Of a stretch of 64,000 nucleotides of DNA, positions 21,461-59,907 are shown piece by piece (positions within the stretch are counted from its first letter, which is position 1; every line of letters begins with the position of its first letter). The DNA is taken from contig CAIIXF020000010.1 of assembly GCA_903813345.2 (NCBI GenBank), positions 1,975,169 through 2,039,168 on the forward strand, given 5' to 3'. The notes below the pieces were generated by a model. It had not been told where the DNA came from and did no database searches. It saw nothing but the letters and a program-made list of their open reading frames with translations. Made by a program: the position numbers and the translations under genes. Source of the stretch: Owenia fusiformis. Lineage: Eukaryota > Annelida > Polychaeta > Sabellida > Oweniidae.

Positions 21461-21654
21461 CCTTATTCGAACAATCACAAAAGGGCTGTCACAGACCAGA
21501 ATAAAATGTCCGAACCATACAATTTTACCCTTGAAAACAGATTTTCGGAACAGCTTTCTCATATTCCAATTTTTTAGAACATTTTTTTCCTTTAAGAACA
21601 TACACCAACTCGCTATAACGCTAAACTTATGTTTAAATATTGAAAATATGTGTT

Positions 21655-37320: not shown

Positions 37321-37565
37321 ATGACTTCAGTATGAATGAAATGTCCCTTGGTGTTCTGGTCCTGGATTGTGATATTGGTTCTCGTTTGGAGGGGGGTGAG
37401 GATGTTAGACATTGTTTTTTTTCACGTTAGATTATGGTTTTGGGATATATAAGGTCTACTTTTCTTATGACAGATTTACACTTACAGTTTGCTTTTCTTG
37501 TTGGGTTTCTTTTAAGTTTTTAGTCACCCTTCCTTTGGCATTTGTGCTTATATATTTACATATAA
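37321..37565 (+). repeat. Family A dispersed repeat, second good copy
   Basis: Matches 28431-28670 nearly base for base: ATGTCCCTTGGTGTTCTGG, TTGGAGGGGGGTGAGGATG, GACAGATTTACACTTACAG, TGCTTTTCTTGTTGGGTTTC, CATTTGTGCTTATATATT. The shared left limit is sharp at ATGACTTCAG; the right limit is at TTATATATT. The high identity indicates recent spread. Confidence 0.85.
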
Positions 37566-39463
37566 TAAATAAAGGACAGACTACGAAATGGTCTCAGTCA
37601 CTCAACATTAGAGTAAAGACATGATCACCAAAGTATATTAAATCAAGGATATTTTAATGCATATATTTTAAATGCTGGTGCAGAATGGGTCTCTGCAGCA
37701 TATAGAAGTGTCCCCAATATGTCTTTTCGGAGAACTTTTATGATTAATAGTCATCGCCAGGGTGCATCAAACCTTGGAACAAAATTACACCAAACTTATA
37801 TAAGTGTTTGGCTATGTAACATTAAAAGCTAAGTTGCGACAGGTTCTTGGGCATAAAAGCATAGTTCCATATAAAATTCTAAATATATTACCTCCATTTA
37901 TCTTGAATAGATGTTTTTTTCCTAATGGCCTAATCAAAACACTCTCAAGAGAATAAAGTTTGCGTGTGAACCTTTTTGAATGGTTATATTTCATCTCCTT
38001 TTAATAGTTATTACTATATGGAAAAGGTGCGAATCTCCTTCACCTTGTTACTGAAGAGATCCCAAGGGGTTACAAATGTGACTCAAGCTCCGTGAAAATG
38101 GGTAATAATGTCATTTCAACAGGATATTTCTAGTTTTATAATAAAGCCTGCAGTAGGTAGCGAGAACCAGAGAACAGTAAGTGCATATAATTGCATGTTA
38201 AGTAGTCTAGAAAGTTTTTATTATCTTCCGGCATTATAAATCCTTATCACTTTTTTCATTTAAAATTGTTCATACAAAGAAAATAAATCGAAGTTATGAT
38301 GCTATAACATGGCAAAATGACAGTATAACAATTGTAGTTAAAGCAGTCCTGACTAAAAATTTTGAAATTCACTTGCACAGTCATTGTTTAGTACCCCATC
38401 TATTTTACGATACATTTATCAATTGCTCTTATCCAAAGGCCTATACAGAGTGTAATTAATATCGTTTGACTTAACATCAATGGTTATCAAAATCTGCTCT
38501 TTTGGGTGATTTGATAAAAAATACTATCATATTTGCATATTTCAGAGACATGAAGCTGTAAACAGTGAAAATGCTTTTTGGTTTAACCTGATATGACAGT
38601 ATATTTATTGAATTAATTTATCAGAGCTAATTCAAGACCTTGATTAAATGGCACCATTAAATGGCAAGATGATAAGAAAGTCACAGCTAAAAGATTGGGA
38701 AAATCTGTTCCTTAATTTTGGAAAAGCTTTTGGACAAATATCTTTAGTAGATATGATATTAAGGTTTATATCCTTATTAATGGTTATATATTTTCTAACT
38801 GTATTTGTAACACCTTCAGCATGGTTCCTCATTGCACTCATAGCACTTGATATTAAACCATGCCAAAATATTTGTCTCTCAAGGTATTTCTTTTAATCTG
38901 GGGAGTTGACTACCTCTGGATGATAAAGTTATCCTATGCTTATAAGAATAATCACAATCACATTTCAAACTTCAATGATTGGCTGTAATTGGTCAATTCA
39001 TGTCACATGACCAGTTGATAATTCAATCTAAGACATTGCAAGCCTTGAATGTCCTCTGTGATATTTAAATTGTATATAATGTAATCTGCATGCATGGCAA
39101 CTACCTTAGAATGCTTTCAGGCGAGTGGTTGCTGAATTTTTCAATTATCAAAAGTCGGCTTCAATCACAATCACGATGTCAGTTGTCACACTATGATGGC
39201 ACAATTGTCATTAAAAATTCATGACAAGCCAATTATTTTTCGTTGCGAGCTGGTGTTATTCTGGCAGAGTATTGTTCAAGCTTGCTGTTTATGGAGACAA
39301 CATGACAGTATTTTATCAAGCCTCTTCTACTAGTCACCACATTGTGCATTTTCATGGATATTTTTGTGGCATGCACTTTTGACCAATATTTCTACATAGA
39401 TTGGTGGGCTGTTTTCTTTAACCTTTTTTGTTTGTCTAGCGTTAATTGCCCTTCATATTTCAA
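37566..39463. other. Non-coding stretch, nothing recognised
   Basis: No supported gene. Open frames at 38648-38896 (plus) and 38644-38841 (minus) overlap each other and show no recognised domain. Confidence 0.4.
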
Positions 39464-40286
39464 ATTATCCCATCGAACGAAGTTCGGAGGGATATAGGGA
39501 ACGCCTCTGTCCGTCCGTCCAGGCAATAACTCAAATACTGTTGGCCCGATTTTGTACACATATACCCTATGGGGGTAGAAGTTCTGCTCGAAAGCCAATT
39601 TTCAAAATGGCCGCTCATTTAAAAATGGCGGCCATTTTAGTGCCAATTTTACAGTAATTCAGGTGCAATGTGTAAAACTGTAATTGCAATATGTTTTAAA
39701 TGTAAAAAAATTATATAGGACATTAATAAAGCTAGAAATGTAGATATCAAAGAAGCACATGGCAGCCATCTTGAATAATGGCGGCCTTTACTCGTTATTT
39801 TACGATTTTTGCTGTAACTCGAAAAGTAGTGGAGCGATTTTGTTCATATTAGGTATGTGAATACTATAGGCATGGCACACTGTCTAATGACACTTTTGGT
39901 CTAAGGTGGCCATTTCGAAAAATGGATGCAATTTTAACGTATTTTACTATTACTCAAAAAATAGTGGAGCAATTTTGTTCATATTTGATATGTGAATACT
40001 ATAAGCATGGCACACTGTCTAATGACACTTTTGGTAGAAGGTGGCCATTTTGAAAAATTGACGCCATTTTAACGTATTTTACTATTACTCGAAAAGTAGT
40101 GGAGCGATTTTGTTCATATTTGATATGTGAATACTATAAGCATGGCACATCTGTCTAATGACACATTTGGTAGAAGGTGGCCATTTTGAAAAATGGCTGC
40201 CATTTTTGCCATATACTTTGTTTGTAAAAAAGCCAGCCATGGCTGTTCGATGGAATTTGCTACGCTTTGGCATTGCTGTTGTCTAG
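39464..40286 (+). mobile_element. TGGCxGCCAT-rich repeat element, plus copy
   Basis: Head ATTATCCCATCGAACGAAGT, TCGGAGGGATATAG, then CTGTCCGTCCGTCC and CAATAACTCAAATAC. Next come three units of 134-136 bp, marked by GTAGTGGAGCGATTTTGTTC at about 39827, 39961 and 40097. Each unit includes CATGGCACACTGTCTAATGA and ends with a TGGCCATTTTGAAAAATGG-type block. The tail is GAATTTGCTACGCTTTGGCA, TTGCTGTTGTCTAG. Head and tail match 1331-2472 (minus) and the tail matches 46370-46467. No coding capacity is visible. Confidence 0.78.
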
Positions 40287-40827
40287 TTTAACTATAAATC
40301 TTCAGATTAAAAAATGCTCAGATTGCATCAAATAACATCTTCAAAAAATTCCCAGGGAGCATACCATGACCCCCATGGCCTTAGGCCATGCAATCAGACA
40401 TCTCCAAGTCAATGTACCAACTCAAAATAAAGCCCCATGCCCATGGTTTTACAGCAGTTGACCTTTTATTAAATATTTCTGTATCTGCTCCATCTTCACT
40501 TCATGTCATCAACTGCAATTTGTTGTGCTCTTAGTGTATATTTTATGAGACATTCAACTTTTATGGATACTCATTATTCAAAATGTTACTTGGTGTGATA
40601 TAATTTCTTACCACTACTCTGCTGCTGCTGATTTTCAGGTTATTTGCAGTGCATTACTTCCTAATATGCTTCCATATACTTACATTTTGCTCTTTTAAGT
40701 ATCTGGTAAAAGGTCAATGGTAACTCCAGGAAATGCTGATATTTACTCATGCAATACATTTCCATATTTTTTCTCAAAGTTTCTGGACAACACTGGAGTT
40801 GACCTCTTACACACATGCCTTCCTACT
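40287..40827. other. Non-coding stretch between elements
   Basis: Nothing recognised apart from a CCCATGGCCTTAGGCCATG palindromic patch near 40372-40390. Confidence 0.4.
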
Positions 40828-41755
40828 GGGTTTACGGAAAAGACCGACCCCACCAACCACCGACCGGTCGGTACCGACCAGTCGGTGTTTTCCACTGGTA
40901 GCCTCAAAACAGGGTTTGAAGAAAATGTGTAAAAGACCGACCATATCATGTAAAAGACCGAACATATTTGTAGCAATTTGATTTTGAATGTCAATCGTTG
41001 GACTAGGCAACGTTTTTTACCGATTTTGTACCTTGCAACGAATGGCAAGCAAACAAATTGGTCATGACCGTCTCCCCTCGATTCATTGTCCTGCCTTAGG
41101 TCCTAACCTATCATTAACCAACCTATCGTTTCTACGGGAATCTATCCTAATTTTTTACTGAAATTTAACAATTTCGAAACAAAAATGATTTGTTATCGTC
41201 ATAGCCTACTGAATACTGAACACGATATAATGTTACATGCGTTCTCTTATCGGGATTAAAAGTGACTTACCATTTCAGTACACCATTAGAAAGCTTTTTT
41301 TGTCATATCAAATGTAGTTTTTACCAGTTGACGTTTAACAACTGAGAAATCAAACATAACGTTACAACGTCAACATCGACGATGTTTGTGTGTTTTTGTT
41401 ATTGCGTTTCATATGAATGAAGAATGAACTTAATGCAATGCTACGTGCGTTTTTTCCAAAGTGACTAACCAGGATGAAATTGGTCTTCTAACAACTGAAA
41501 CATCACTTAAAAATATGACATTACACACCACGACGATGTAACGTTTTCATCGTGATTTGAAATGATAATTATACGTTTTTAAATCACGACCTAGTAAAGG
41601 TACTATAGTCATTGGATTCCCAGTTTTAGTTTAACTTCTAATTTTGCATTTTTTCATCTTTATGTAAAAGACCGTCAGCCGACCACCGACCACATGTACC
41701 CAACTGTGGAGAGTGACTGGTCGGTGGTCGGTGGTCGTTGTTTTACGTAAACCCC
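40828..41755. mobile_element. hAT-like non-autonomous element, ACCGACC-rich
   Basis: Ends are GGGTTTACGGAAAAGACCGA on the left and, on the minus strand, GGGGTTTACGTAAAACAACG on the right. The 8 bp outside are TTCCTACT (left) and TTCGTACT (right), seven of eight identical, as expected of an 8-bp duplication in the hAT superfamily (established knowledge; assignment inferred). Subterminal regions carry repeated ACCGACC / GGTCGGT, including ACCGACCGGTCGGTACCGAC, in both orientations. Inside, two diverged segments (about 41240-41400 and 41450-41560) share AAAGTGACT, ACAACTGA and CGACGATGT. The overlapping short open frames at the left end are by-products of the repeats. Confidence 0.72.
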
Positions 41756-43356
41756 TTCGTACTTTATTTTGTACAAGAAAATAACATGTGCAGTTATAGC
41801 AATTTTTCAATAATGTTTTCGTTCCACAAGTCCCTTTAGTTGTCATGACTACTACAAAATTATCACTGTCGTTGCTGTTACAATAAATTATTTACTTCAA
41901 CTGATGTTAATAATTTCACTTAAATGTTGTTTCTTAATTTATTTACTTCATTTGTTTATTTATTTTATGTTGTTACTGAATTCATGTACTTTAAGTGTTG
42001 CTACTAGATTCATCCCAAACTCTACATTCTAATTGTTGCCATTTATATTATATTTTCTGCACACCATTTGGGACCTTATTATTTCAAATACAATTTAACT
42101 TTCATTAGAACTTCCCGAAGCATCGGATACCAAATTTCCCAAGTGCCCATCTCCCACGTGTTATTGACTTTTTGAACCTACTGAGATTTTCAAACGAATT
42201 CGGCTGGTATTACAATATTACAATTGACTTTTTTTCCAACATCTCTACCATCAGGATACTCCAGATTGACAGGCTGTATAGATAGGTGTTATCACCTAAT
42301 GGATGAAAGGTGTAATATGTGTTGAGTAATATATCACTTTTATATGTATATTGAGTGTTCATGCTCCATTCTCTGAGTTCCATAGTGCCTGTAGTAGGAA
42401 ATTTAGATGGTTCAGTAACCTGGATGAACAAATGAATGGTGATATAATACAGAATAAATTAACCACTTAGTGAGCTCTTGCTGTGAAATGTATTTTCATT
42501 ATAATCTGCTTTTTGCTCTATTCCTTATTGGAATTTTTTGTCACTAAATTTGATCAGTCTTGACAAGACAATCGGGTAGTGGCTGTTATGTATGAGTGTT
42601 CATTATGGTATCTTGTAACCCAAGGTTCTTTTGAAGCAAAAGAAACTTCCTATGAACTATATGTAGATTGCAAATGCAAAAGAATACTGACATCAACAAC
42701 AAAAACATGACAAACAAAAACAGCATGTATATTGTAGAACAAAACTGAAGAATAGTATTGGAAAAATAGGAAAGATAAGGACATTTTAAAGGTTCTTGAG
42801 AAGGAACAACCTCAGGTTCATCTCCCTGAATTATTCTGGAGATCTTACTGTTGCCCTGGTGGTTACTTTAAAGATGATGGTTTTTATCTATTTAATATTG
42901 TAATTCATGTATGACATGCAGTATATATTTCCCTGTGTACCTCAAAGGTTAATTATGAAGAAAATGGATAAACCTACATTAAATCTTTATTAACTTGTTA
43001 TATTTCCTTCTAAGAGCCCATCAAATGAAATAATGACACACTAATTCTGATGATGAAAACGAATAGTACAATGTTGAAACCAAGTCATATTGTAAGACCT
43101 TCCTCACTAAATATGAAAATCAATTTCGCCATAAGATCCTCATTTACTGCGGCTGAGCCATGTGATCTTTCAGAATTCTACTTCCTCACTTAATGTATTT
43201 TGTTCAATTATCTGTAATAATTAAATCAATATTAGAAGCTTTTTAACCAGAATAGAACATAACCATTTGTCTCATACAGGGAAAAATGAAACATGAACAG
43301 GGGCAATGTCACGTAACACAAAGTATCATATTCTTAAATCTAGGAATTTTAAGATA
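41756..43356. other. Non-coding stretch, nothing recognised
   Basis: No supported gene, repeat array or inverted pair. Confidence 0.4.
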
Positions 43357-43564
43357 CAGAGTGAGCGAAAAAAGGTAACCCAAACAAAATAATAGTAGTA
43401 AGGAAAATGGCCATCAATTAGTAACCATTTGGAATAAACTAATGAAACTTGGTAGAATGAAAGAACATTTAACAAGGCTTATTTGTGGTAAATACGACAG
43501 TAAACCTATACTGGATGACTGATATATTAAGATTTGTTTGGGTTACAATTTTTGGCCCACCCTG
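43357..43564. mobile_element. mariner-like MITE, 208 bp
   Basis: Ends are CAGAGTGAGCGAAAAAAGGT on the left and, on the minus strand, CAGGGTGGGCCAAAAATTGT on the right. Both continue into AACCCAAACAAA, giving inverted ends of about 33 bp. TA lies directly outside both ends (43355-43356 and 43565-43566). CAGGGTGNNCCAAAA-type ends with a TA duplication are typical of Tc1/mariner derivatives. Confidence 0.88.
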
Positions 43565-43928
43565 TACATCTAAATATCTTATTCACATTGTCAGTTTAAT
43601 TTTGATTGAAATACCTCATAATCTGCATTTTCTACCACCAACTCTTGACTAATGTTTATTCTCACTTTGCCTAATTGAGATTTCACTTCATTTCTGAAGT
43701 TAAGTCCATAGTTGTTATGGCATATTTTCATGAGTGATAGTTGATCTATGTTATATTATTTATTCTCGGATATCAATATCAAGGCATGATATATCATCTT
43801 GACCAATCAGAACACATACCATTATACCATTTCATATCTAACAACAGATGAAGGGCAGACTCATAGCCAGTTTTTCACCATTCTAAGCACTTTTTAAGTG
43901 ATTTTGGACTAAAATTGTCACAAGTGAA

Positions 43929-43959
43929 CCCCCCCCCCCCACCCCCCCCCCCCCACCCC
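43929..43959 (+). repeat. Poly-C tract with two A interruptions
   Basis: About 30 bases of C broken by two A residues. It is a potential quadruplex or i-motif former and a weak point for assembly. Confidence 0.9.
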
Positions 43960-44081
43960 TAGGCAAATCCTGGCTATGGGCCTGAAGGTTAACAGATAAA
44001 CCTGTAATGAGGGAAAGTTTGTGTTGACCTTGCAGAAACCATTGCAAAAATGCTATAAATTGTGGGTGATTTCATGCACTT

Positions 44082-44125
44082 CCCTTATAAAAAATTCAAC
44101 CTTGAAAGTCCGAATTTAAACCGTT
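44082..44125 (+). repeat. Left 44-bp inverted end
   Basis: Exact inverted match to 46883-46926. Perfect identity points to a young insertion. Confidence 0.93.
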
Positions 44126-45150
44126 TCCATCAATCATTGAATACTGATTGTTTCAACTACTAAGATCAAAGGAAAAACCATTGTACGGTGATAAGCAATC
44201 ATTGTGCAACCATTGCGTTCAACCAAACAAAGTCAACTCTTTTTCAATGACTGCGCAACCATTTCTATACAATCATTGTAATCTGCAACCATTGTAAACT
44301 GCAACCATTTCACATTGAAATGTAAATGGTTGCAATACGTTTTGTTCAATGATTACATAGTTCAAGCCCTGCAACCATCCTGAATTGGTATCGTTCCAAA
44401 AAAGTAATCATTTTACTTGAATTAAAATTATCTTTAAGTAAGGATTTGAATCTACCTCTATTCAACAACAGTATATTAGGATATTTTTTCTGCAAGCATA
44501 CATGCATGTTTATTATAGTAAATTACTAAATTCATGTTCATATGTTTCTTTCTCCAGTACGGATTTAGGAATGCGATACCAGACTAGTTTTCCACTCAGT
44601 GGCATATGATAATTTATGTTCTCTGTCATTTACATTATTTACACAATTAAAAGTACCATATCTAGTGTTTATTTCCTGTTATCTGGTATTACCAAAATAA
44701 TGTATCTTTGATGTTATTTATGAAAAGAATTGAGCAAAAATTTGGTTAAGAAATTGACCAAGGAAAATCTTAAGATTTCCTTTAAACTTAACAAAATCAT
44801 AAGATGAGACACCATTGTTTTTGTTCATGATTAGACTGATATACATGTATGATCAAAAGAAGCAGGATATGATGTACAAAATAATACAAACATGTAATCA
44901 CAAGTTGATTGCTTTATTTAGTGAAAATGTTTTTATAGTAATAATGCATTCAGGCACCAAAGACTTTAATTTTCACAGTTTCAATGGAAAACATCTGAAT
45001 AAATAATTTCAGTAAAATTTTGTCAAGGTAGATGGATTATTGCTACACCCATGATATACAAATAGATTGGTATGGGAACATATTGATATTGGAGGGTTTA
45101 GCTTAGGACCCCCGCAAAAGTTTATATACAATGAACAGGCCAGTAGTCAG

Positions 45151-45164
45151 CCCCCCCCCCCCCC
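45151..45164 (+). repeat. Poly-C tract
   Basis: Run of 14 C inside the 2.85-kb element. Confidence 0.88.
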
Positions 45165-45410
45165 AGCAAAATGGGTCTTCAAATGTATCCATGTGTAGTT
45201 AACACCAAATATCAAGAGTATGACTCACTAAAATTTAAAAAATACAAACAAGAGGACTATTTTGATATTGACTGTATATTATGTGTGAAACACATTATTC
45301 ACAACAGATTTAATTACCATGTTCTTTCTTGGCAAATATTTTTTATAACAATGCTCAACACAACAATACCTACTACATATTGATATTCTCATGGGTTTAA
45401 GAAAATCAAA

Positions 45411-45504
45411 ATGCTTGAACAGCCAATTAAAACGGTTGAACAGCTAATTAAAACGGTTGAACAGCTAATTAAAACGGTTGAACGGCTAATTAAAATGCTT
45501 GACC
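45411..45504 (+). repeat. 21-bp minisatellite, 4.5 units
   Basis: Units of ACGGTTGAACAGCTAATTAA plus A; the outer units begin ATGCTTGA instead. It lies inside the 2.85-kb element. Confidence 0.93.
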
Positions 45505-46369
45505 AGAAAAAGGGTTCATAGTCCAAGTTTCTGTTATATCTATTTTCATCTTGTGTTATACTATATATTTATTTTAATTATCTATTTCATGCAGAGGGGG
45601 GGTAGTTAAAATTTAAAAGTGTTTTCAGATTTTTGAGGGTTTATTTCTTTATTTAAATACTTCATTAAGTGCTGAGAAATCTCAAATAGCAAGTCTATGA
45701 AACTGCAAATAATATTTTCAGAATGTTTAGTTTGTTTTACCATAGGCATTCAATAGATTGAAAGTCCATGGTTTTACTTTATTCATTAGGGCAGAGCATT
45801 TGTACTGAAAAGTGTTTTCAGTTTAAATAATATGTGTTGATGATTAAAAAATAAAAACCAAAAACAGGGCTTATTTTTCAAAACTCTAAACTTGGAAAAA
45901 TCTGGAGGAAAATATGGGAGATTTTCTTTGGCAAATTATTTATCAAGTTCTGTGTATGGAATAATTTAAATTACATAGGATGCTTCCTTTATAGCAGACT
46001 CTAATCAAACTGATATAATAAGGTTTGTTTTGCCTTGCTGAATTATTTTTGTTTTGTTTATGGATTAATGGATTAATAAAGTTTCTTTAAACACATCTTT
46101 CAAAGCAGACTCTAATCAAATTAGATAGACTGAGTCTAACTGTAATCAGAGTTTTTTAAGTTATGCTTATCGACTTAATTATTTAAAACACATCCTGTAA
46201 TGTCTGATTGCATTTTCTCTATCAAATCAAAAATATCAAATCAAAACAGATTATTTTCCCATTGAAGGGTTTCTTCCTTCCAGACACATCTTCCTTCCTT
46301 TATAATTGCGATGATTGCAAGGTGAAGTGTAAAATCTAAGACTTGACCCAATCAAATTTTTTTCAAATG

Positions 46370-46467
46370 ATTTTGCAATAACTTAAAAAGTAGTGAAGTG
46401 ATTTTGTAAAAATGATAGTCATGACAGCGAGGGGGATTTGCTATGCCAAAGCATTGCTGTTATCTAG
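46370..46467 (+). mobile_element. Solo tail of the TGGC-type family
   Basis: TTTTGCAATAACTTAAAAAG, TAGTGAAGTGATTTTG and the end GGATTTGCTATGCCAAAGCA, TTGCTGTTATCTAG match the last unit and terminus of 39464-40286. The head is missing, so the fragment is 5'-truncated or rearranged. Confidence 0.65.
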
Positions 46468-46882
46468 ATAATATACATGTAAGTTAGATCACCATCCTTC
46501 AAAGTTAGATGAAAATTGGTTCAATATATTTTCATTCACAAGACAAGTTTACTTAACTATTTCAATACTTTAAATATCTTTTTGATCAAACCATTTAAAT
46601 TCTGACATGTACAGTATGCATGAATACACACATTTGAAATATATTTTTTAAAAAGCAAGATAATTATTTTATGTTGTATTGAGATAAAATTGCCATAGTT
46701 TTAAAGGGTTGCATTCGATTGAAACGGTTGCAAGAAATGCAACCAAAATTGTCAAGCGTTTACAATGGTTACATATGATTGAAACATTTCAATGAGTTTA
46801 CAACCAAAATTGTAATGGTTGCATCGTAACGGTTGGCATGGTTGCATAAATGATCGGATCAATGATTGTACAATGATTGTGC

Positions 46883-46926
46883 AACGGTTTAAATTCGGAC
46901 TTTCAAGGTTGAATTTTTTATAAGGG
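46883..46926 (-). repeat. Right 44-bp inverted end
   Basis: Exact inverted match to 44082-44125. Confidence 0.93.
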
Positions 46927-48414
46927 TTGCGTCATATAAGCTAGTCTCGGGCTCCTGCGCGTGTCCAGCTTTGTGCTTTGTGGATGAATCATCCATAATT
47001 CATTTAACACTGGATTTAAAACCTTGATAAGGAGTCAAAGCCTATTCAGTCAAAAGCTTTGAAATTTTGCATTTCTAGTTCTTGACTACAGTGATCAACA
47101 TCATAAAAGTAAAAATAGTAAAATAGTGTTAATTTACAATTCTTAATGACTTCTACAATGCCATGAAATCATAGATTATCCCTGGATTATCAATCACATA
47201 AAGTACTTTTTTATTATATATTTTGATGTAAGAAAATTTGAAAGTAAATTGAGACTTCACATTGCATTAAAAATGACTCTATATAATTAACCTAATGACA
47301 TTGTGTTACATCAATGTTACAATCAATTAAAACAACAGAATATATTATAATCTTGGTGAAGATGTTTTTATATCTAAATTATGTCTGTTAGGTTCAGCTG
47401 TAAGGTTTCCTGGATTATAATATCAACCCAGGGCATTATATTTTCATGGCCGATATCGTAGAATAACAAATTTTAAGCTAATACCTGAACATGTATGTTT
47501 AGGCTAGTAAGAATTAGACTTTTCCAATTAATTATTCAACTCAACAAATACTCAAGGAAATGAGATCAATTCATTACACAAAAATTCCCTATAGTTATTG
47601 TTGCTCATTATTCTTTCTAATTTATAGTTGTTCCTCTGTGTACATATGTCCATACCATCCTCTGGCTAGCCTTAAGGGGTCAATCATTAGATCTTGTTTG
47701 AGACTTTCCTTTTCTCATTAATTAAGATTCAGAAGCTTGATATTTGCCTTTGTGACCTGGTTGTTCATTGCAAGTTATTAAGACTTTGGATTGATGAGAG
47801 AAGTGAAAATAAATTCCCTTTCCCTCCATTTTAGAGAAAAAATTGGTCAATATGATTAATTAACTCCATCTTCCGAAAGTCAACTTAATTTGGTACTATT
47901 TAGTTTAACAAATTTGGCACAATTGGAAAATTAGGGTAAATAATGAAATTTGACAAGAGTGAGCCATAGTTATGAATTAACGGTTGTCATTAAAATAAGC
48001 AAGGTGTATAAAAATTGAATAAAGAAAGCAGATGTTGCGAATGGAATTGAAGCAATGTGTATTTATACTCCATTTCATTCAGAAAATAGTAGAAATTTTT
48101 TTATTTTAATGGGCACAATAAAAACAATTTCATTGGACAAAAAAATGTCCAGGGATTTTGAAAAATAGATGATATGAATAGGTGAATTTTTGCAATTGGC
48201 CAAATTAAATTGACTAAAAGTATGATTCACTCCTTGAACTTCTTTTGTCATTATATGAAGAAATGAACCAGTGGGGTTATAATTGTGTCATTCATGATAT
48301 TTATGGTATTTGACAGCTGAATTTATGTATTTTACTTTCTTTATGACTTATGTCACTATCATCTGACACATGTATTCACACCTGTGTTCAGTAATAGCTT
48401 CAGTGAAGCCATTG
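46927..48414. other. Non-coding stretch, nothing recognised
   Basis: AT-rich with no supported feature. Confidence 0.4.
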
Positions 48415-49274
48415 AGACCAGCCATACCATGTTTAAACGTAAACCATGATACCATGGTATACCATGGTTTACCATGGTCTATCATGATCGGCAATGAAAT
48501 TACCATCAACTCTGACCATGGTGGCAATGATGTTTTTTTGGTCAATTTTTGACCATGGTATACCATGGTATATCATGTTATACCATGTTTCATGGTATTT
48601 CATGTCCAAAGTTTGCCATCAAATACCATGGTATTTCATTGCCATGTTCCTGACCATCATTTACCATGGTATTACCATGGTATATCATGGTTGATTGCAT
48701 TTCATGGCATTTCATTGTAAGATGTGACAATCAAATACCATGGTATTTAAATGCCATGTTCCTGACCATAATTTACCATGGTATATCATGGTTGATGGCA
48801 TTTCATTATAAGATGTGACAATCAAATACCATGGTCATACCATGGTATTTCATTGCCATGTTCCTGACCATCATTTACCATGGTATTACCATTGTATATC
48901 ATGGTTGATGACATTTCATGGCATTTCATTGTACCGTGTGACAATCAATTACCATGGTCATACCATGTCATTTCATTGCAAAAATCATAACTCTCATTTA
49001 TCATGGTTTTATCATTGCATTTCATGGTTGGTGGTATTTCATGGCATTTTATTGTCAAACCTGACCATCAAATACTATGGTCATACCATGGTATTTCATT
49101 GCCATAATCATAACTATCATTTATCATGGCATATCATTGCATTTCGTGGTTGATTGTATTTCATAGCATTTCATTGTCAAACCTGACCATCAAATACCAT
49201 GGTTATACCATGGTATTTCATTGCTAAAAAGAACTCTACAAGAGTCTCAAGTCTGAATTTGGTCAGAGTTGAGA
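48415..49274. repeat. CCATGG-rich tandem block, left part
   Basis: Diverged tandem units of very roughly 100-150 bp: TGACAATCAAATACCATGGT, ATTTCATTGCCATGTTCCTG, ACCATCATTTACCATGGTAT, ATCATGGTTGATGGCATTTC. The 16-bp palindrome CCATGGTATACCATGG occurs intact near 48443. The block is bracketed by inverted ATCAACTCTGACCA (about 48508) and TGGTCAGAGTTGAGAT (about 49259). Open frames rich in His, Trp and Tyr on the plus strand are produced by the repeated TACCATGGT and are not genes. Confidence 0.85.
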
Positions 49275-49400
49275 TGGATCATGAAATGCAATGAAATACC
49301 ACGTTTAACCATGAAATGCAATGAAATACAATGATTGATCATGATATGCAATGAAATGCAATGGTCTTTCTTGCAATGCAGTGAAATACAATGAAAGACC
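49275..49400. repeat. ATGAAATGCAATGAAATAC repeats
   Basis: Several units of (C)ATGAAATGCAATGAAATAC, which is the inverted form of the GTATTTCATTGCATTTCAT segments to the left. The two parts could therefore pair. Confidence 0.75.
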
Positions 49401-49779
49401 ATGTTCAAAAAGTAATTTTTACATGAAATATCTTTATTATTAATGTTAATTAGATAACCAAATTATTATAATTAGTGATTCTGATATTCATCAAAATCAC
49501 AAATTTATATACTTTTGTTCCTTTATTTAATAAATTAATTTCTATTATGAATAATTAAGTTAATAACCCTAGAAACAAATTTTTTTTGTTAAACAAATAT
49601 GCTTTACTTTTATTTGACTGTTGTCAGATAAATAGGAGATCAACTTAATACATTGTAAGTCAAACCTCCAGTCTTCGATTAAACATCTTGACTGTACTTC
49701 ATTGCATTTGATGGTTTGCAACCATGAAATACTGCAAAATAGCAGTATTTTTAAATGCAAAATTTTAAGTATAGTTTCC

Positions 49780-50360
49780 ACAGTATTCCATGGTAGATCG
49801 TGATAATTAAATGGCTCCATTGCATATCATGGTTAAATGTCTAGAACATGATATCACTGCATTTGATGGTATTTGACCATGAAATACTGTGAAACGGTGG
49901 TATTTTTTAGATACAAAATTACATGTTAATTGACCATGGTATACCATGGTATATCATGATCGTTAAATGGCACCATTGCATTTCATGGTCAGGAGCGTTT
50001 TTTTAACATGGAGTTTCCCATTGAAAAAATACTGCCGTTTCACAGTATTTCATGGTCAGAAACCATCAAATGCAATGATATCATGGTCAAGAAACCATCA
50101 AATGCAATGATATCATGGCCGAGAACTTGACCATGATATCATTGCATTTGATGGTTTCTGACCATGAAATACTGCGAAACGGCAGTATTTTTTCAATGGA
50201 AAACTCCATGTTAAAAACGCACTGTTAACAATGAAATGCAATGGTGCCATTTAACGTTCATGATCGGCCATGGTATTACCATGGTATTTCATTGCATTTC
50301 ATGGCCATATACCATGGTATACCATGGTCATACCATGGTATACCATGGTATGGCCATGGT
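49780..50360. repeat. CCATGG-rich block, right part, palindromic
   Basis: Contains the large hairpin at 49935-50290 and ends in a run of five CCATGG sites within about 45 bp (50310-50355). It is built from the same motifs as 48415-49274 (TACCATGGTA, ATTTCATTGCATTTCATGG). A 380-bp non-repeated spacer lies between the two parts. Confidence 0.85.
49935..50290. repeat. Hairpin with about 160-bp arms
   Basis: The left arm 49935-50091 runs from CCATGGTATACCATGG through GGCACCATTGCATTTCATGG, GCGTTTTTTTAACATGGAG and AAAATACTGCCGTTTCACAG to GATATCATGGTCAAG. Its complement lies at 50125-50290. The 33-bp loop is itself a second copy of the arm tip (GAAACCATCAAATGCAATGA). Arms differ by a few substitutions and small indels. 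Confidence 0.92.
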
Positions 50361-51897
50361 CCATTTCAACATGGTAGTGTAGGAGTGGGACTGAGTGAGT
50401 CAATAAATACTGAAGAACTCAGAAAGACATGAATCCCAAAAGACAACATCATCAGATAAGATCAACAATCGAAGCTGAAAATCATCCATTTAGGAATAGA
50501 AAAGTAATAAATAACCAGATTGTAAGTTCATTCAAAAATGATGTAGTCACATGAGATTTGATTAAAACAGATTTAGAATAGTCCCCATTGATAACTCAAT
50601 AGCATCACACCTAAAAACACTACTAAATACAAAAAAACATTTAACATCATAAAACACAAATTCCATTCTGTTTTCAGGGTGAGTAATTCTGATTATTGCC
50701 CATTGTTTATTTGCGTATTGTCTGTGTGTCACTTGATTAATAGACAGATCACACATACAAAAAGGAGATCCCAGCTTCCATTACACACCAAAGGCACGAT
50801 AATGTGACAATGAGGTGTCAAACATACATAACAATACTTTTTAATAACCATTAGTTCTATATTAGGTCACATTTTATTTTGATGCATGATTTGTGTGATA
50901 TATTCTCTCTTGTGTAATGAATAATTTGAATGTTACCAATGTCAAATGATTTATTGATATGTGCTAATTTTGTACTGAATTGCTCCATCATGTATTATTT
51001 CACTAACAACTTAGTCACACCTGCTCAATGAAGGTTATTTCTCTACATAAGTACTATATAGTTAGGCTGAATCACTTAAAAAACCCTCCCGATAATTCTT
51101 TTTATGATAGAAGCACCAAAATTGGTACAAGTGTAGCTGATTGTAATTGAAAAAAAAATGGCTCGAGGCAGCAAGTGATCCGGAGCCTCGTTTTGGAAAA
51201 AAATCAAAATTGCCGCCAGTCTATTTGTGATTTTGCCGATTTCTATTAAAATCTCAAGATCCTCTGACATATTAATGAAAACTGTATAGAAACCTCAAGA
51301 AGTGGCTTTGAAATGAATCTTTATTGATGAACTGACATTTAACTTGAGTTTCAAATATAAAATGGCGTAAAACAAGGTTCGGTATTATGACCTGTACTAT
51401 TAAGTTCATAAATTACATATATTCATCAAAAATTGTTAACCAAATACGGAGTACTTACATAATAGGATACTGAAATAATTATATTGTATTGATTATAAAA
51501 TAAGTGTTCTTGATATTTGATATTGTTGTTGATATAATTATGAAATACTGTGAGCTGATAACCTGCAGTAAACAAGCATAATATTACGGTTAGTATACAT
51601 GACAGTATGTAAAGATTATTTAGAATACAAAACCTGTCAAATCGGAACACCATAGGGACTCTCCAAAAGTGTTAGGGGTCCACCTTTCAAGGTTTTTTTC
51701 AAAAAGTGTTCAGATTAGGGAGATGTTCGGGGTACTATAATAATTTCAATTGAAATATGTTGATATATCTGTGTATCATACATATTTTTGTATGACTTAT
51801 GTTTTAAGATTGTTAACATTTATTCATTTCTTTTGATTATGTGTAAGGAGACATTTAATTCAGATTTACTGCCTCGTGTTTACTAAATTGTATGTTA
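50361..51897. other. Non-coding stretch, nothing recognised
   Basis: No supported gene. About 51076-51270 is slightly more GC-rich, with a 64-codon minus-strand frame, but no family is recognised. Confidence 0.4.
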
Positions 51898-52885
51898 AAC
51901 AGGATCTTAAGAGGTTCTGGACAAATCATTTGATTCTGGACTTGTCATATTTTTTTTTCAACGAAATCACATCCAAGGGTTGAATTTTTATTAGCTATTT
52001 AGAGAGTGAGTCCTGCCTAGTATTAATTTCAATAAAAAAGTTAAAATAGAACCCTATTTGAGAGTCAATCTAATACTTACATTACATTGATAAATTAAGG
52101 CAAATCCTGAAATATTTTTAAAGTGCGTTTTTTAATGAAATATTATCCAGCAAGTATTTAAATGAAACGGTCTTATTTAAATACAAATCATAACATGATA
52201 TTTTTCATGAAACATTTTTCAATGAAATTCAATTGAAGGGTCAAGATAAAACGAGCTAATTTAGGTGAAAACCCTTACATGATGATGTGTTTTCATAACT
52301 TCTTTCATAAAATTCCATCAAGGGGTGAAGATAAAATGATCGAATTTAAGTGATTTAGGATCACGAGAATATGTTTTCTTTGATATTTTCTATGAAATCC
52401 CATCCAATGGTCAAGGTAAAATTTTGATTTTGATTTTGATTTGGTCACGTGTTCGAAAGATCCATATAAGGCCCATAGAACCATATAGGAACGTCATTTT
52501 GAATGTCACGTGATAGATCCATATAAGGCTTTTAGAACCATTTATGGAAAGATGAGGGAAGCCCCTGACACCTGTTTCACGATTTTTATGCACTTCATTA
52601 TTGTACCGAAGTTTGCCGATTCGATTCGTCGTATTTCGGAATCCTGGTGACAATTTTATACTCCATTGGAGTATTTTTGACCTACTTCTTATGACGGAAA
52701 TTCCCGAACCTTGTTCGGATTAATCCGGATTTTCTGACCTACTTTATCTACCGAGATTTCACGAGTTAACATTCGTCTCATTCCGGAATCCTGGTGACAA
52801 TTTTATACTCCATTGGAGTATTTTTGATCAACTTTTTCTGGATTTTGCCCTACTTATTATATCTTGACAACAAGCAAATCAAAAA

Positions 52886-52970
52886 GTTCGACATGAACGG
52901 GTCTCGATCAACTAACCTAGACTATGGAAGCCAGGCACGCTAACCATGAGGCCAACGAGCTACCGATATG
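52886..52970 (-). repeat. tRNA-like sequence in left arm
   Basis: On the minus strand it reads TAGCTCGTTGG (A-box-like) and, about 43 bp on, GATCGAGACCC (B-box-like), preceded by GGTTAG. This suggests a tRNA-derived SINE head or a decayed tRNA. Stems are imperfect, so I do not call a functional tRNA. Mirror copy at 57194. Confidence 0.5.
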
Positions 52971-53054
52971 AAAGAACAAAAGTATTATATATTTATACCA
53001 AGCGTCAATTCAAAATGATCCTCACTTAAATACGACTCGTCAGTTGTATCCAGA

Positions 53055-53120
53055 ATAGTAGAACGCCTATGGCGCTAGTGAATAACCAAGTCCCAGGTGA
53101 GTGGTTCGTATCCCTCCGTG
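53055..53120 (+). repeat. Second tRNA-like sequence in left arm
   Basis: TGGCGCTAGTG (A-box-like, 53070) and GGTTCGTATCC (B-box-like, 53103) at tRNA-like spacing. It faces the opposite way to the first tRNA-like unit. Mirror copy at 57043-57110. Confidence 0.5.
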
Positions 53121-53242
53121 TTATACTATTTTTGTTTTATTAAATACGACAGAAAGGAGCAAGGTGTAGGTTGAAAACAAGACGTTAGTTTGTTTCAAAA
53201 CAGTTTGGAAACATTAATCTCTGGAACATTATTTTTTCAACA

Positions 53243-53405
53243 CTGATACAAATTTCCCTGACATTTCCCTGACATGTCTACCGTTTCAAAATTCCCGGTC
53301 ATCTTTGGCCCTTTTGACCTAATTTTAAAATTACCTGACATTTCCAGCACTTGGAAAATCAAGTCAATTTCCCTGACATTTCCAGGTGTGTATGAACCCT
53401 GGAAA
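53243..53405 (-). repeat. TTTCCCTGACATTTCC-type dispersed repeat
   Basis: Three to four copies of TTCCCTGACATTTCC and variants, ending CCAGGTGTGTATGAACCCTGG. On the minus strand a short open stretch repeats a MSGNF-like peptide. Similar low-complexity reading frames are common by-products of dispersed repeats in marine invertebrate genomes (recollection, not checked). Confidence 0.5.
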
Positions 53406-53945
53406 TATCCCACTGGCTCGCCCTATGAATTGCTAGCACAGATTGGATTGATTAGTGTTTCAAAATGGTGGACGAAGTGTTTGATTAGATAATTTACATA
53501 TTAAGCTTCTTAAAGGGGCAACAAGGCCTGTACATAGAAAATTCGAATTTTTTTACATTTTCTGAATTTTTAGGGCAACATTTGGCTTTAACATCTTTTT
53601 TTATACATTTTTTCTTAAAATGTATGGATAAACAATAAAATTTCAGCATTAAGCAGTGCAAATTCAGTTCAAAGCTTCTATAACTTATAGATTTTGAAAA
53701 TCCGACTCGTTTAAAGAAGAATATCAGCAGCTTAAATCACGCCTTGTGATCATACAAAATGGATGGAGGGGGGAAGGCGATTTCTGCAAGAAAACTCAAC
53801 AAATTTTGAAGATTTATTTTTTTCAAGATAAAATTTACAACTGAATTGCCAAATGAATAGGCGCAGTGCATGGCAAAATATGTAAGGTCTTCTAGTATTT
53901 TTTGAACTGATACGCTTCTAAGATATGAGATCTATTATAAAAGGC

Positions 53946-53968
53946 GCATCATCATCATCATCATCATC
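53946..53968 (+). repeat. ATC trinucleotide microsatellite
   Basis: About seven ATC units between GCGC and AACG. On the minus strand this gives a Met run in a short open frame. Confidence 0.88.
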
Positions 53969-54045
53969 AACGTGCAAAAGTCAATGTTTTTGCTATAAAT
54001 CAGGCAACAATGGTCTACACGACCTGTAAAAATAGGTATGAGGGG

Positions 54046-54860
54046 TGTTATTAGAGAATTTTCGTTATAAGTTTTTTTAAAACTTATACGTATACTTATA
54101 CTTATAAACCCAATAAACAAGGTGTTTCATAATTTCCTAATTCGTCGGGAAATATCTCCTAGGACGGTAATAAAAAGGGCCAATGGGATACCATCCGTAC
54201 CCCCTTGATGTAAAGCATGTTTAGTTGTGTCATATGTGTTTTCTAGAATCAAATAGGCTGATATAGCACACGGGTTTTACAGATTTATCTACTCTCAAAT
54301 ATATTTTTTGTAGATGATCGTTTTGAATCACCTTGTAGAAATAACGAAGGGAGAATTAGTTCAGCTAATGAATGAGTCAAGCTATTTGATTGGATACTAT
54401 GCCTATTCAGCCGATTAATTTTAATAAGCCATTCTGGTCAGTAGGTCCACACATATACTATGCAGAGATCCAACTCTGTAAGTTTATAATCTGCGTATAA
54501 AGGCCCTTTTATACGTAAAAACTTAAAAATTGACCTTATAATTTCATGAGAACTTTGAAATGATCGACTCGTTCGTGTTGTGATTCACTTTAAAGGGTCT
54601 TGTTTATCGTACACTACAAGGACCCATCAACTAGAATCTAGTTTATCGTGTTCATAATTGACACTAGCAAAGGACATTGTATTCGCAGTCCCTAGTTGAT
54701 GATGAAGCTTGACTATATCGGGAATAGTTATGCCCCACTTGGTACAGATTATGAAAATCAATTTGAATTGATTTTAGTTCGACAAGACCCTTTAAACTAT
54801 AAGTATACATATAAGTTTTTGAAACAACTTATAACGAAAATTCTCTATTATCACAACACT
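54046..54860. mobile_element. Inner inverted-repeat element, about 815 bp
   Basis: TTATTAGAGAATTTTCGTTA followed by TAAGTTTTTTTAAAACTTAT on the left pairs with the complement of about 54792-54860. A second inverted pair, TTTAAAGGGTCTTGTTTATC (about 54590) and GACAAGACCCTTTAAA (54781), lies inside. The right arm overlaps an 87-codon plus frame at 54696-54959 that I cannot assign. Confidence 0.6.
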
Positions 54861-56236
54861 GACATTGCTCACTTTTTAAAGTTGTTTCAAAGCGTTATAT
54901 GTAAATGGGCGTGTGGAAGGCCCGTGGGTGGCAATAAGATAACTCGAACTTCAAATTAAAATATATATAAAATAGTATATTTCAAACTTCAATGTTTAAA
55001 ATACAATGCTCTGTAATGTACAACATGAACTCTTACAACAACTACTGACAAGCCAACACCCAATGCAAACTCAGCTACATGTGAGTGAGAAAGACCATAT
55101 AGGGGAACAATAGATATATAAAACTGACACAGTTTGCATAGTTGAATAACTCAAGGTGAAAAGTGAACATGGTATTAAAAGAGTAAAACTGCAAACAACC
55201 TACTTAGGGACCTGTTATATTGAGATGAATAGGGATTGATTAATATGAACAGTAATAATATAAAATGTGAAAATGACCACGTTACATATACAAAAAATAA
55301 CCCCATTGTTACAAAATCACAAAAAGTGAAATATCTATTCTTGTATTGCATTTTCGTTCACTGGACATATTTTAATTGCATTGCTATTAGATACATTTTA
55401 AGGGTGATATGAAAATTGAACCACGAAAACAGATGTACTTTAAGTTAAAGGGAACTTTCTACCATACCCGCCATGCTATCTGACCCGAACGAGCCACCTT
55501 GTGGTGAGATTGGTAACTACCTGCTCGCATCTGCGTTATTACGCAGAGACATAAACGTATACACAAGGAAACGATAGGAGATAACCTATTTTATCTCTGT
55601 ATACATTTTAACTTTAATACATCGTTGAATCGAATTTGTCCAAAGGTCTTGAAACGTAAAATACCTAAATATTTATCTTAGACCTTGGGATGACCTTGTA
55701 CAAGAAACATTAATGTTGACCTCGGTTCATCTAATTTCTGAAGACAATACTCAATCGGCCGGGCGCCGTAGTGAAAATCGGAGCAAATGTGACGAAGACA
55801 TAAAACAATTGAATAATACTGTATCAGTTTCACATTTACAGCGGTCAAAAGCATTTACAAAAAAACCGCCAGAGTTGGCAATCATATAAAATGAAACCAA
55901 TCCCGCTGTGATTCATAGAAATAACTAATTTACTGCATTGAGTTCAATGTTATAACCATGTCGATTTACATGAGTGTCCGATTCATTGTACCAAATTTAA
56001 ACCTTGACTGTTCTCCAGAAAGCAATAAGCTGACATATATCATATTTTACATTTTAATACAACTGAAAAGATAATAAATGTTTTAATATAAAGTTGACGT
56101 AGTTATAAATGTTTTCAGCGTAAAATCAAAGCACAACCATATAATTAAAAACATTACGCTGGGATTCCAACTGGATACAACTGACGAGTTTAGTATTTAG
56201 GTGGCCTAAAGTGCTGCTTATTTTTTCGTGAAGCCA

Positions 56237-56368
56237 CTCAGTAAAATTACGATTTCTCTCAACCCTGATGTTCAATCAACATCATTCGAGTATCTATATG
56301 TTCCTGACACGTTCGGGCATCCGGTTATGACAACGTCTACCCAATGTTTGCACGAGAAATTGACGTAA
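56237..56368 (+). pseudogene. Coding remnant with PDVQS and VPDTFG motifs
   Basis: Translates to LSKITISLNPDVQS, then SFEYLYVPDTFGHP before a stop. The minus-strand frame 56698-56898 has LSKNTISLQPDVQS, then SFKYICVPDTFGRP. Both DNA and protein are conserved across the two inverted copies. Downstream AACTATTTACAAAAACGTTC matches the other copy as well but in a shifted frame. Family not recognised. Confidence 0.4.
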
Positions 56369-56697
56369 TTCATGACTGAAATCGGGAAGACAAAAATATG
56401 TGATATTCTTTCAGAATTGTTTATAATAACTATTTACAAAAACGTTCCCGAGACACAATCCATTTAGGTAGGGTTTGTTTTAAAGTCGAAAAGCCCCAAT
56501 AAGACCATACAAACCCAGATTAAACCCAGAAGAATGCAGATTTCATGTAATGATTTACGTTCATGTAAACAAGGAAAGTACATATAATCCCCATATAAAA
56601 CACTGGCCTACGTGACATGTAAACACAGGTTCAAATTGAAATATAGAAAATTTTCAACATAGCATTTGCTTCTGTGTTCTGTATGCCCCTCTACCTG

Positions 56698-56898
56698 CTA
56701 ATAAGGCAATGTATCTTCAAATAAAACCTTAGCCAAGTAGATAAGGGTCTCTGGAACACTTTTGTAAATAGTTTTCACAAGCAATTTTATTCCCGGACGC
56801 CCAAACGTGTCAGGAACACATATATATTTGAATGATCTTGATTGGACATCAGGTTGCAGAGAAATCGTATTTTTACTGAGTGGATTATTGAATTTCAT
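56698..56898 (-). pseudogene. Inverted partner of the VPDTFG coding remnant
   Basis: 66 codons from an ATG in the context GATCTATGAAATTC to a stop. Shares 25-30 alignable residues with the plus-strand frame at 56237-56368, including PDVQS and VPDTFG. It is intact longer than its partner (continuing IYKSVPETLIYLAKVLFED). It lies 40 bp inside the right 1.3-kb arm. It may be a transposase or accessory-gene fragment, or an exon of a captured host gene. Confidence 0.35.
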
Positions 56899-57042
56899 AG
56901 ATCTAGAGGCCCTTCAGGAGTGGAAAACCTTAAATTATCAGAGATTAATGTTTCCAAACTGTTTTGAAACAAACTAACGTCTTGTTTTCAACCTACACCT
57001 TGCTCCTTTCTGTCGTATTTAATAAAACAAAAATAGTATATC

Positions 57043-57110
57043 ACGGAGGGATACGAACCACTCACCTGGGACTTGGTTATTCACTAGCGCCATAGGCGTT
57101 CTACTATTCT
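57043..57110 (-). repeat. Mirror of second tRNA-like sequence
   Basis: Complement of 53055-53120; same A- and B-box-like motifs. Confidence 0.5.
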
Positions 57111-57193
57111 GGATACAACTGACGAGTCGTATTTAAGTGAGAATCATTTTGAATTGACGCTCGGTATGAATATATGATACTTTTGTTCTTTCA

Positions 57194-57276
57194 TATCGGT
57201 AGCTCGTTGGCCTCATGGTTAGCGTGCCTGGCTTCCATAGTCTAGGTTAGTTGATCGAGACCCGTTCATGTCGAAC
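57194..57276 (+). repeat. Mirror of first tRNA-like sequence
   Basis: TAGCTCGTTGG at 57200 and GATCGAGACCC at 57253. A TTTT run follows soon after (57277), as a pol III stop would. Confidence 0.5.
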
Positions 57277-58263
57277 TTTTTGATTTGCTTGTCAAGATAT
57301 AATAAGTAGGGCAAAATCCAGAAAAAGTAGATCAAAAATACTCCAATGGAGTATAAAATTGTCACCAGGATTCCGGAATGAGACGAATGTTAACTCGTGA
57401 AATCTCGGTAGATAAAGTAGGTCAGAAAATCCGGATTAATCCGAACAAGGTTCGGGAATTTCCGTCATAAGAAGTAGGTCAAAAATACTCCAATGGAGTA
57501 TAAAATTGTCACCAGGATTCCGAAATACGACGAATCGAATCGGCAAACTTCGGTACAATAATGAAGTGCATAAAAATCGTGAAACAGGTGTCAGGGGCTT
57601 CCCTCATCTTTCCATAAATGGTTCTAAAAGCCTTATATGGATCTATCACGTGACATTCAAAATGACGTTCCTATATGGTTCTATGGGCCTTATATGGATC
57701 TTTCGAACACGTGACCAAATCAAAATCAAAATCAAAATTTTACCTTGACCATTGGATGGGATTTCATAGAAAATATCAAAGAAAACATATTCTCGTGATC
57801 CTTAAATCACTTAAATTCGATCATTTTATCTTCACCCCTTGATGGAATTTTATGAAAGAAGTTATGAAAACACATCATCATGTAAGGGTTTTCACCTAAA
57901 TTAGCTCGTTTTATCTTGACCCTTCAATTGAATTTCATTGAAAAATGTTTCATGAAAAATATCATGTTATGATTTGTATTTAAATAAGACCGTTTCATTT
58001 AAATACTTGCTGGATAATATTTCATTAAAAAACGCACTTTAAAAATATTTCAGGATTTGCCTTAATTTATCAATGGAATGTAAGTATTAGATTGACTCTC
58101 AAATAGGGTTCTATTTTAACTTTTTTTATTGAAATTAATACTAGGCAGGACTCACTCTCTAAATAGCTAATAAAAATTCAACCCTTGGATGTGATTTCGT
58201 TGAAAAAAAAATATGACAAGTCCAGAATCAAATGATTTGTCCAGAACCTCTTAAGATCCTGTT

Positions 58264-59597
58264 GTTTACACTTTCAAATAAACAATTTATCGCAGAATTG
58301 GTTGATTTTTTGTTTTTGACTTTTTGTATATCCATGTAAGATGGGATCCCCAAAAACATGTTCATACACCAAAATGACAATACATGTTCATTGACCAATT
58401 AAAACATTCACTCCTATTTCTTATCCAAACAATTCATGAAACTGAAGCAAAAATCTCTGCATGAAATTATATTTTAGCTTCAAATGCCAGGTACAGGTTG
58501 AATGACCCCAATTCCAAGGGAAATGTGGAATATGACAATGCTTTAGTATGTACAATCACAGTGTCAGTGTCACTATATCAACCAGTGATCAGCTGCTAAT
58601 ATTTATGTTCCAGAGAATATCTTCACATTTGTGACATGTTATTTGACAATTCTAAGATCAATTATTTTGATATATGAACTAATATTCTCTCTTATGAGCA
58701 TCTAATGCCAACCATATAACAATGTGCAACAGTAATTGGAGTATATTATAGATAAATTAATATTTGATTGATTAATTTCCTTAAATCACTAAGCTTTTTG
58801 AGGAAATTAATCAATGCAATTAGTAAACCTAAATGATGAACACATTTGAACAAATTAAAATTTGGTTCTTTGAATTAAAATCATTTACATTTCATCTTAA
58901 TAGCATTTGTATATCTTGTTCTTACTGGTATTAGCCCTTTACCAATATAACTGGCTAGGGTTATATTAAAAATTGAAGTATGTACATATTTATTCTTGAT
59001 ATATCTTGTGACTTGATGCAATAAAAATCCTGGAATAAAATGGTTCAAAATGTTCCAAACATTTTGAAAATCTGAAATTTTCCTAGACCCTCTAGTTGAC
59101 TAGACTGAAATATAGTCCTGCACCCATAATCATGAAAGGGTTGAAGGAAATGTTAGTATTCTAGTATGAGTATAGTAAAGTGTTTTTTGACTGTCCTTAA
59201 ATACTACAAGTATGTTATGTACTCTAATGTTAATTACATGTACATCAAGAGTTAATAATTAATCAAAATACACATTCACATTTGTTTGATTTTTTTTTTA
59301 ATGTGATGAACTTACCTTTAACAAATGTTAAAATTGTGCTGACAACAGCAAAGTTCACAGTTGCATTTCCTCTCTCAACTGGTCCAACCAACATCTTGTC
59401 TGGAAAATCCTATTTTATTGTATATTTTATATATATATTACAATTTCAGAATAAACAATACACTGTTGTTATGTGACTTGTTTAACCATATATATTAACC
59501 AGAGTGGGTAGAGACCACTTTCTTTTCCAAATGTAGAATAATTACATAATTGCACAGTAGATCCAGAGATAGTAAAGGGATTTCAATGTGCAACTAA
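58264..59597. other. Non-coding stretch, nothing recognised
   Basis: AT-rich; no supported feature. Confidence 0.4.
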
Positions 59598-59907
59598 GGG
59601 ACCATCTCAAAAACTTCTGACCTTTTTTATTATAATTTTTTCGTCAACTTGATACCAGATCATGAATAAGCAACATGGTCTTGGAAAAGGCCAATAGAAG
59701 TTAGAGGCTATCAAATGGTGTACCCTATCAAACCTTGTTCAAGTATATCTTCTAATATATTTTCAAGTGGAAATGGAATACTCCGTAGTCGATTTTGTGT
59801 AAAGCTTAAGACTTAATGATTAACAATATGATAAATTATTAGATTGAGTAGGAGGATTTTATGAGATGTCATATTTGAAAATGACAGTCTGCTTTTGAGA
59901 TGGTCCC
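59598..59907. mobile_element. Small inverted-repeat element, about 310 bp
   Basis: GGGACCATCTCAAAA at 59598 is answered by TTTTGAGATGGTCCC ending at 59907, perfect for 15 bp. No target duplication was established, although TA lies near both ends. Probably a MITE of unknown class. Confidence 0.65.

Follow-up and report, generated by a model that had tools for sequence, protein, structure and literature searches.

A bounded block of CATG-centred decamers with inverted ends as a candidate foldback/MITE-like element

In this work, we analyzed a 1952-bp block of short palindromic repeats within a stretch of 64,000 nucleotides of DNA (hereafter, the window). Judged from its anatomy, the block would work like a foldback element, and we assign a probability of about one half (0.52) to its being a single old and degenerate non-autonomous insertion of foldback/MITE type, grown by slippage and fold-back copying and once mobile in trans. 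The odds are about even against a local satellite and several lesser rivals, and the block is put forward as a candidate only. A foldback/MITE-like insertion is what (i) the inverted ends, (ii) the sharply bounded block of motifs, (iii) the lack of protein domains and (iv) the composite repeats point to, and the direct and inverted copies, together with a hairpin whose arms are more alike towards the tip, make slippage and fold-back copying the probable mode of internal growth. The block looks like an old mobile-element insertion, not like a new kind of genetic system. Its features are collected in Table 1.

Table 1. Features of the block, with positions counted from the first nucleotide of the window
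Feature	Position	Strand	Remarks
Whole block	48425..50376	.	1952 bp of CATG-core decamers; foldback/MITE-like reading
Left terminal inverted repeat	48425..48500	+	outermost bases TACCATGTTTAAA; aligns inverted with 50296-50376, score 75
Further, very degenerate unit	48439-48550		54-58% to the other tandem units
Tandem array	48551..49244	+	six units of 102-123 bp; TRF periods 112 and 123; 14 of 28 CCATGG
30-bp tandem array	49273..49394	+	about 4 copies; decamers with CAATG/CATG cores; TRF
AT-rich spacer	49403..49698	.	GC 0.22; zero CCATGG
Segments a and b, direct order	49699..49932	+	aligned: a 49685-49784, b 49785-49840, a 49841-49932
Large hairpin	49933..50285	+	b (+), a (-) // a (+), b (-); 353 nt; arms about 160 nt
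32-bp tandem duplication at large-hairpin tip	50058..50121	+	copies 94% identical; second copy in weakly paired tip
Right terminal inverted repeat	50296..50376	-	reads inwards TACCATGTTGAAA
Second hairpin	50300..50360	+	five CCATGG at 10/11-bp spacing; closes block

The excess of CCATGG and CATG is real and large. A previous inspection of the letters alone (the sequence-only reading) had counted by eye about 28 CCATGG sites in 48415-50360, where chance would give about one or fewer. The exact count is indeed 28, against 0.15 per 1946 bp expected from base composition and 0.56 per 1946 bp outside this interval (18 sites in 62,054 bp of the window), and the richest 1946-bp tile outside the block holds six (tiles every 100 bp). 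The several 16-bp palindromes that it mentioned were also recovered: CCATGGTATACCATGG is present in five exact copies (at 48452, 48553, 49934, 50312 and 50333) and, allowing up to two mismatches, has 11 matches in the window, all inside the block, versus 0.02 expected. CATG occurs 69 times in 48415-50360, where its frequency elsewhere in the window predicts 10. Its density, 35.9 per kb in 48425-50376 versus 4.0 per kb in the flanking kilobase on each side, changes sharply at both borders, and 48425-50376 are better limits of the block than 48415-50360. By parts, the left end holds four of the CCATGG sites, the left tandem array 14, the two stretches of the right half one and four, and the right end five. 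The view that the palindrome is the unit under amplification holds in part: the decamer described next looks like the founder of the block, but 19 of the 28 sites (14 + 1 + 4) belong to larger duplicated segments, the other nine lying in the two ends.

Neighbouring CATG cores, of which the block has 70, are 10 or 11 bp apart in 21 of 69 cases, versus a mean of 3.5 and a maximum of 10 such spacings when the cores were placed at random (2000 trials), and lag 10 shows the strongest autocorrelation of lags 1-159 (0.382 versus 0.279 expected). Both results argue that the basic unit is a decamer similar to ATACCATGGT and self-complementary about its CATG. Such phasing on one helical turn would also suit a dimeric DNA-binding protein whose sites form an array maintained by selection, which is a reading that we consider very unlikely. 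If dyads bound by a dimer were under selection, both arms of each site should change together. Around the 70 cores, symmetric pairs numbered 34 versus 32.7 expected at the first position (p 0.41) and 43 versus 42.0 at the second (p 0.40), and fell below expectation at the third (29 versus 33.5) and the fourth (21 versus 28.2); at the fifth position from the core they numbered 30 versus 24.0 (p 0.06), in favor of the array. The CATG/CATT columns of the tandem units are slightly more conserved (0.919 versus 0.849; 6 of 122 circular shifts reach the difference), a weak signal, perhaps due to the 10-bp period, yet for the CCATGG columns (0.927 versus 0.861 elsewhere) 20 of 122 shifts do so, and no Pfam family reaches the cut-off in 45001-59999 to mark a regulated gene. 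The binding-site array, one of three readings offered from the sequence alone, is therefore not favoured, as the arms of the palindromes vary independently and the CCATGG columns are not clearly more conserved. Under the foldback reading, the palindromes would be a by-product of element growth and not kept by selection.

Tandem units had been claimed as well and were detected by TRF with periods of 112, 123, 30, 156, 32 and 10 bp, among others. The six units of the left array share 65-86% pairwise identity, which drops with distance (means of 81, 79, 73, 74 and 65% at distances 1-5), as expected of units that would have arisen by stepwise local duplication long ago. Parts of the 30-bp array, when inverted, match segments of the units at 48551-49244 (77-78%), and the lag-10 autocorrelation of the AT-rich spacer is 0.269. 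The decrease of identity with distance would equally be left by a local satellite or minisatellite that was never mobile and expanded where it stands from a single palindromic decamer, through slippage, template switching and unequal exchange. This explanation, which we hold to be rather unlikely, is further favored by the absence of a target-site duplication of at least 6 bp, by the richness of the window in tandem arrays (39 TRF rows, the block's own included) and by a 29-bp array at 10738-11110 that is worded like the block's 30-bp unit. It does not predict, however, inverted ends matching better than all 328 internal windows, and the block is split by an AT-rich stretch without the motif. 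For comparison, satellite DNA comes in long homogeneous arrays at several loci, and the array at the one locus looked at here is short and heterogeneous.

The arrays at 10738-11110 and 12107-13049, with units of 29 and 30 bp, respectively, belong to the same minisatellite family (about 80% alike). In a comparison chosen by eye, the scores of their likeness to the block's 30-bp unit were reached by 3 and 2 of 1000 shuffles, respectively. The six best of 1237 overlapping tiles (scores 29-36) fall in the first array, whereas the best listed tile of the second scores 26, level with unrelated places. Kinship of the two arrays with the block's 30-bp unit may be regarded as a lead.

In the right half, a segment a of about 90 bp and a segment b of about 55 bp are ordered a b a b a' a b' over 49685-50285 (the prime denotes inversion), with direct copies lying next to inverted ones of the same segment. 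The large hairpin is predicted to fold with -160.4 kcal/mol versus a shuffle mean of -42 (z -28.7; none of 100 shuffles as stable), and the tile 49951-50250, within it, is the most stable 300-nt tile of the window (tiles every 150 bp, plus strand). The second most stable tile contains a 159-bp palindrome at 31007-31165, in which 73 of 77 aligned arm columns are identical (90.7% by BLAST of the whole). The arms of the large hairpin differ in 14 of 160 columns, 12 of 80 in the outer half versus 2 of 80 in the inner half (Fisher p 0.009). The inner half would be younger or homogenised, and the gradient could come from arm-to-arm conversion instead of growth at the tip. It is tempting to speculate that the 10-bp self-complementary decamer itself replicates, as a palindrome-driven satellite growing without a transposase, a view that we regard as unlikely. 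A hairpin primed at its tip would then extend by copying its own arm, the inverted copy left by each round would be younger than those next to it, and the growth record would be kept from old outer to young inner arms.

A 353-nt hairpin far more stable than 100 shuffles would also be accounted for by a transcribed long hairpin RNA serving as a source of siRNA or piRNA. In a hairpin kept as RNA, G-T should exceed A-C mismatches on the transcribed strand. The mismatches of the large hairpin comprise 3 G-T and 4 A-C, with no clear plus-strand G-T excess, those of the neighbouring inverted pair 49840-49929/50003-50092 comprise 5 G-T and 3 A-C, and the fold is of similar stability on the two strands (-160.4 and -163.1). 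Having found no clear strand-specific wobble bias, and no Rfam match in the window at the gathering threshold, we rejected this explanation as highly improbable.

The outer ends align inverted over 76 and 81 nt with a score of 75, versus 60 when aligned direct, and most of the match stems from the decamers of which the block is full. Of 328 internal windows, none reaches 75 (largest, 52), none of 130 internal controls reaches the inverted match of the terminal 25 nt, and the 60 bp outside each border have little mutual similarity (scores 14 and 11). With these ends and the very stable hairpin, a foldback-type element is the best supported of the three readings offered previously. Another of them, amplification by slippage or cruciform, fits the internal growth, given the 10/11-bp spacing, the copies in both orientations and the greater likeness of the hairpin arms at the tip. 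The accompanying claim that the two halves are built from inverted forms of the same segments describes correctly the outer ends and the inversion within the right half (151-nt arms, 91%), but fails for the left arm as a whole, whose match to the right arm is about as good inverted (local score 77) as direct (81), in line with building blocks that are self-complementary.

A TA is present at both borders, which would fit Tc1/mariner and could be a TA target duplication. Such a TA is also supplied by the motif itself, as TACCATGGTA is self-complementary, and no Pfam family lies over the block. A scan with the left border at 48405-48444 and the right border at 50345-50394 found no exact target-site duplication of at least 6 bp (40 random pairs of places averaged 5.7), and none of 8 or more bp with one mismatch or of 10 or more bp with two. 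The right border is not seen in the lag-10 autocorrelation, which is 0.326 in 49999-50376 and 0.338 in 50377-50676, and in a scan for larger terminal inverted repeats around the block the longest exact inverted match between the flanks was 13 bp. Close to the block, inverted arms of 1.3 kb at 51898-53223 and 56939-58263 are 99.5% identical (1323 aligned columns) with 3.7 kb between them. This pair is possibly a young terminal-inverted-repeat transposon, its arms giving no Pfam family at cut-off and one sub-threshold match, in the right arm.

A coding block was considered and rejected: a six-frame Pfam scan of 45001-59999 gave no family over the block at E 0.05, and the longest stop-to-stop frame of the block, 113 aa, lies within the repeat array. 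The lone sub-threshold match of that scan, TetM_leader (15.5 bits versus a cut-off of 25), is at about 57472-57537, outside the block. Across the window, 20 of 30 chunk-frames (two of six frames for 1-14998, six of six each for 15001-29999, 30001-44999 and 45001-59999, none of six for 60001-64000) gave no family at the curated cut-off and five sub-threshold matches (TetM_leader, Cation_ATPase_C, DUF3980, DUF5688 and FERM_N). No stop-to-stop frame of the window exceeds 129 aa (frames running off its ends left aside), ARAGORN found no tRNA in it, and its AT content is 68%. The window fits intergenic DNA of a eukaryote, and the host genome is probably that of an invertebrate, perhaps a marine one, judging by the motif at 39471-39491, which is presumably one known from marine invertebrate repeats. 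This motif had no match in viral contigs, and a 14-base piece of it had none in the open literature. Other repeats of the window are a tandem duplication of about 2.1-2.2 kb at 2228-6563 (2228-3438 versus 4349-5559, 99.7%; 3410-4349 versus 5624-6563, 99.3%), fourteen copies of a 79-bp unit at 22007-23115 (94% match) plus an isolated partial copy at 21671-21750, and about three copies of a 135-bp unit with GGCCATTTTGAAAAATGG-type inverted motifs at 39817-40206.

No further copy of the block was found in the 64-kb window (E 1e-8). Relatives were likewise absent from viral contigs, GTDB contigs and plasmids, collections that are not of animal genomes, so that this negative carries little weight. 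In the viral contigs, an idealised decamer run of 23 bases, absent from the window itself, had no match and the 16-mer occurred in four contigs, at one place each, with 2-4 CCATGG; a 26-base piece of segment a had no match. A 20-mer matched one TM7 record with two CCATGG among the GTDB contigs, taken as chance, and the plasmid collection gave no match. Searches of the open literature with the 16-mer, a 13-base piece with the word 'satellite' and six motif variants were negative, which is no proof of novelty since sequence strings are rarely printed in papers. Nothing on point appeared among papers on palindromic satellites, as far as titles and the beginnings of abstracts tell, and none among those on subterminal repeats. 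Palindromes and tandem arrays are often misassembled, and a chimeric or collapsed repeat might thus be suspected. The copies differ (54-97% identity) and the assembler did therefore not simply duplicate one stretch, and we find an assembly artefact hardly credible.

Altogether, the foldback/MITE-type reading suggests the following course of events. The self-complementary decamer would fold back on itself during replication or repair, and slippage across it would have produced direct runs at 10/11 bp and, later, the 102-123-bp tandem units. Hairpin-primed template switching would have generated the inverted copies of the right half. As to former mobility, a transposase supplied in trans may have recognised the ends, perhaps inserting the element at TA. 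Should further copies exist, differing hairpin tips among them would form a ladder of growth steps on which fold-back copying could be tested. Even as a single copy, the block would be a well-resolved example of a decamer-based foldback-like repeat, showing how palindromic satellites might start.

Among known systems, the oyster Crassostrea gigas offers a further alternative. Non-autonomous Helentrons (HINEs) with a central satellite array are common in oysters, and in the available text the arrays of Cg_HINEs consist of 138-181-bp monomers in an average of 2.3-5 copies (PMC7492417). The block resembles them in carrying a short satellite-like array, here of six 102-123-bp units, with palindromes after it and near the right border, and on the minus strand a CTRRT (48421) stands 4 bases beyond the left border. 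Cg_HINEs are, however, described in that text with sub-TIRs and with the array preceded by a microsatellite and followed by a palindrome, not with long inverted ends like the block's of about 80 bp (PMC7492417); a pre-array microsatellite was not identified in the block, and the right border has no CTRRT, the nearest on the plus strand being at 50689. A HINE carrying a central array thus has little probability here, and it would be incompatible with copies ending at TACCATGTT on both sides.

MITEs provide two parallels to the reading as a foldback/MITE-like insertion. For the zebrafish Angel element, Izsvak et al. proposed fold-back copying of the nascent strand as an amplification step, with in vitro folding of the element cited as support, according to the available part of a review (PMC12628747). 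Strands that fold on themselves liken Angel to the block by description alone, and the block differs in being a 1.95-kb composite with tandem units. The same text presents miDNA4 of Xenopus as a Tc1/mariner MITE carrying a satellite (PMC12628747); it shares with the block an internal array, variable in copy number in miDNA4, the block being assigned to no superfamily.

Among foldback elements, Tetris of Drosophila virilis is, in the available text, like the block in having no coding capacity, tandem repeats in its inverted ends, a middle domain and a satellite-like array (PMC4079207). Its terminal inverted repeats reach 1,735 bp with repeats of about 220 bp, its target-site duplications are of 8-10 bp, and three structurally complete copies are reported (PMC4079207). 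The block, in contrast, has far shorter inverted ends at its two borders (76 versus 81 nt), 102-123-bp and 10-bp units, no duplication of 6 or more bp and one copy seen. Tandem repeats do occupy its arms, as 10-bp runs at both ends and 102-123-bp units on the left, the arms being asymmetrical as wholes. The Mutator/foldback family Tm1 of root-knot nematodes shares with the block composite terminal inverted repeats with a short tandem motif in variable number, of 13-15 bp versus 10 bp here (PMC3169594). Unlike the block, Tm1 shows duplications of 9 bp, some of its members carry a putative transposase, and self-complementarity of its motif, a property of the block's decamer, is not described in the available text (PMC3169594). 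A target-site duplication of about 7-10 bp is absent from the block, which is therefore not classed as a proven foldback element, given the 8-10-bp duplications reported for Tetris and Tm1. Notwithstanding, Tetris is the closest published anatomy that we found, as is Tm1 for short motifs in composite ends.
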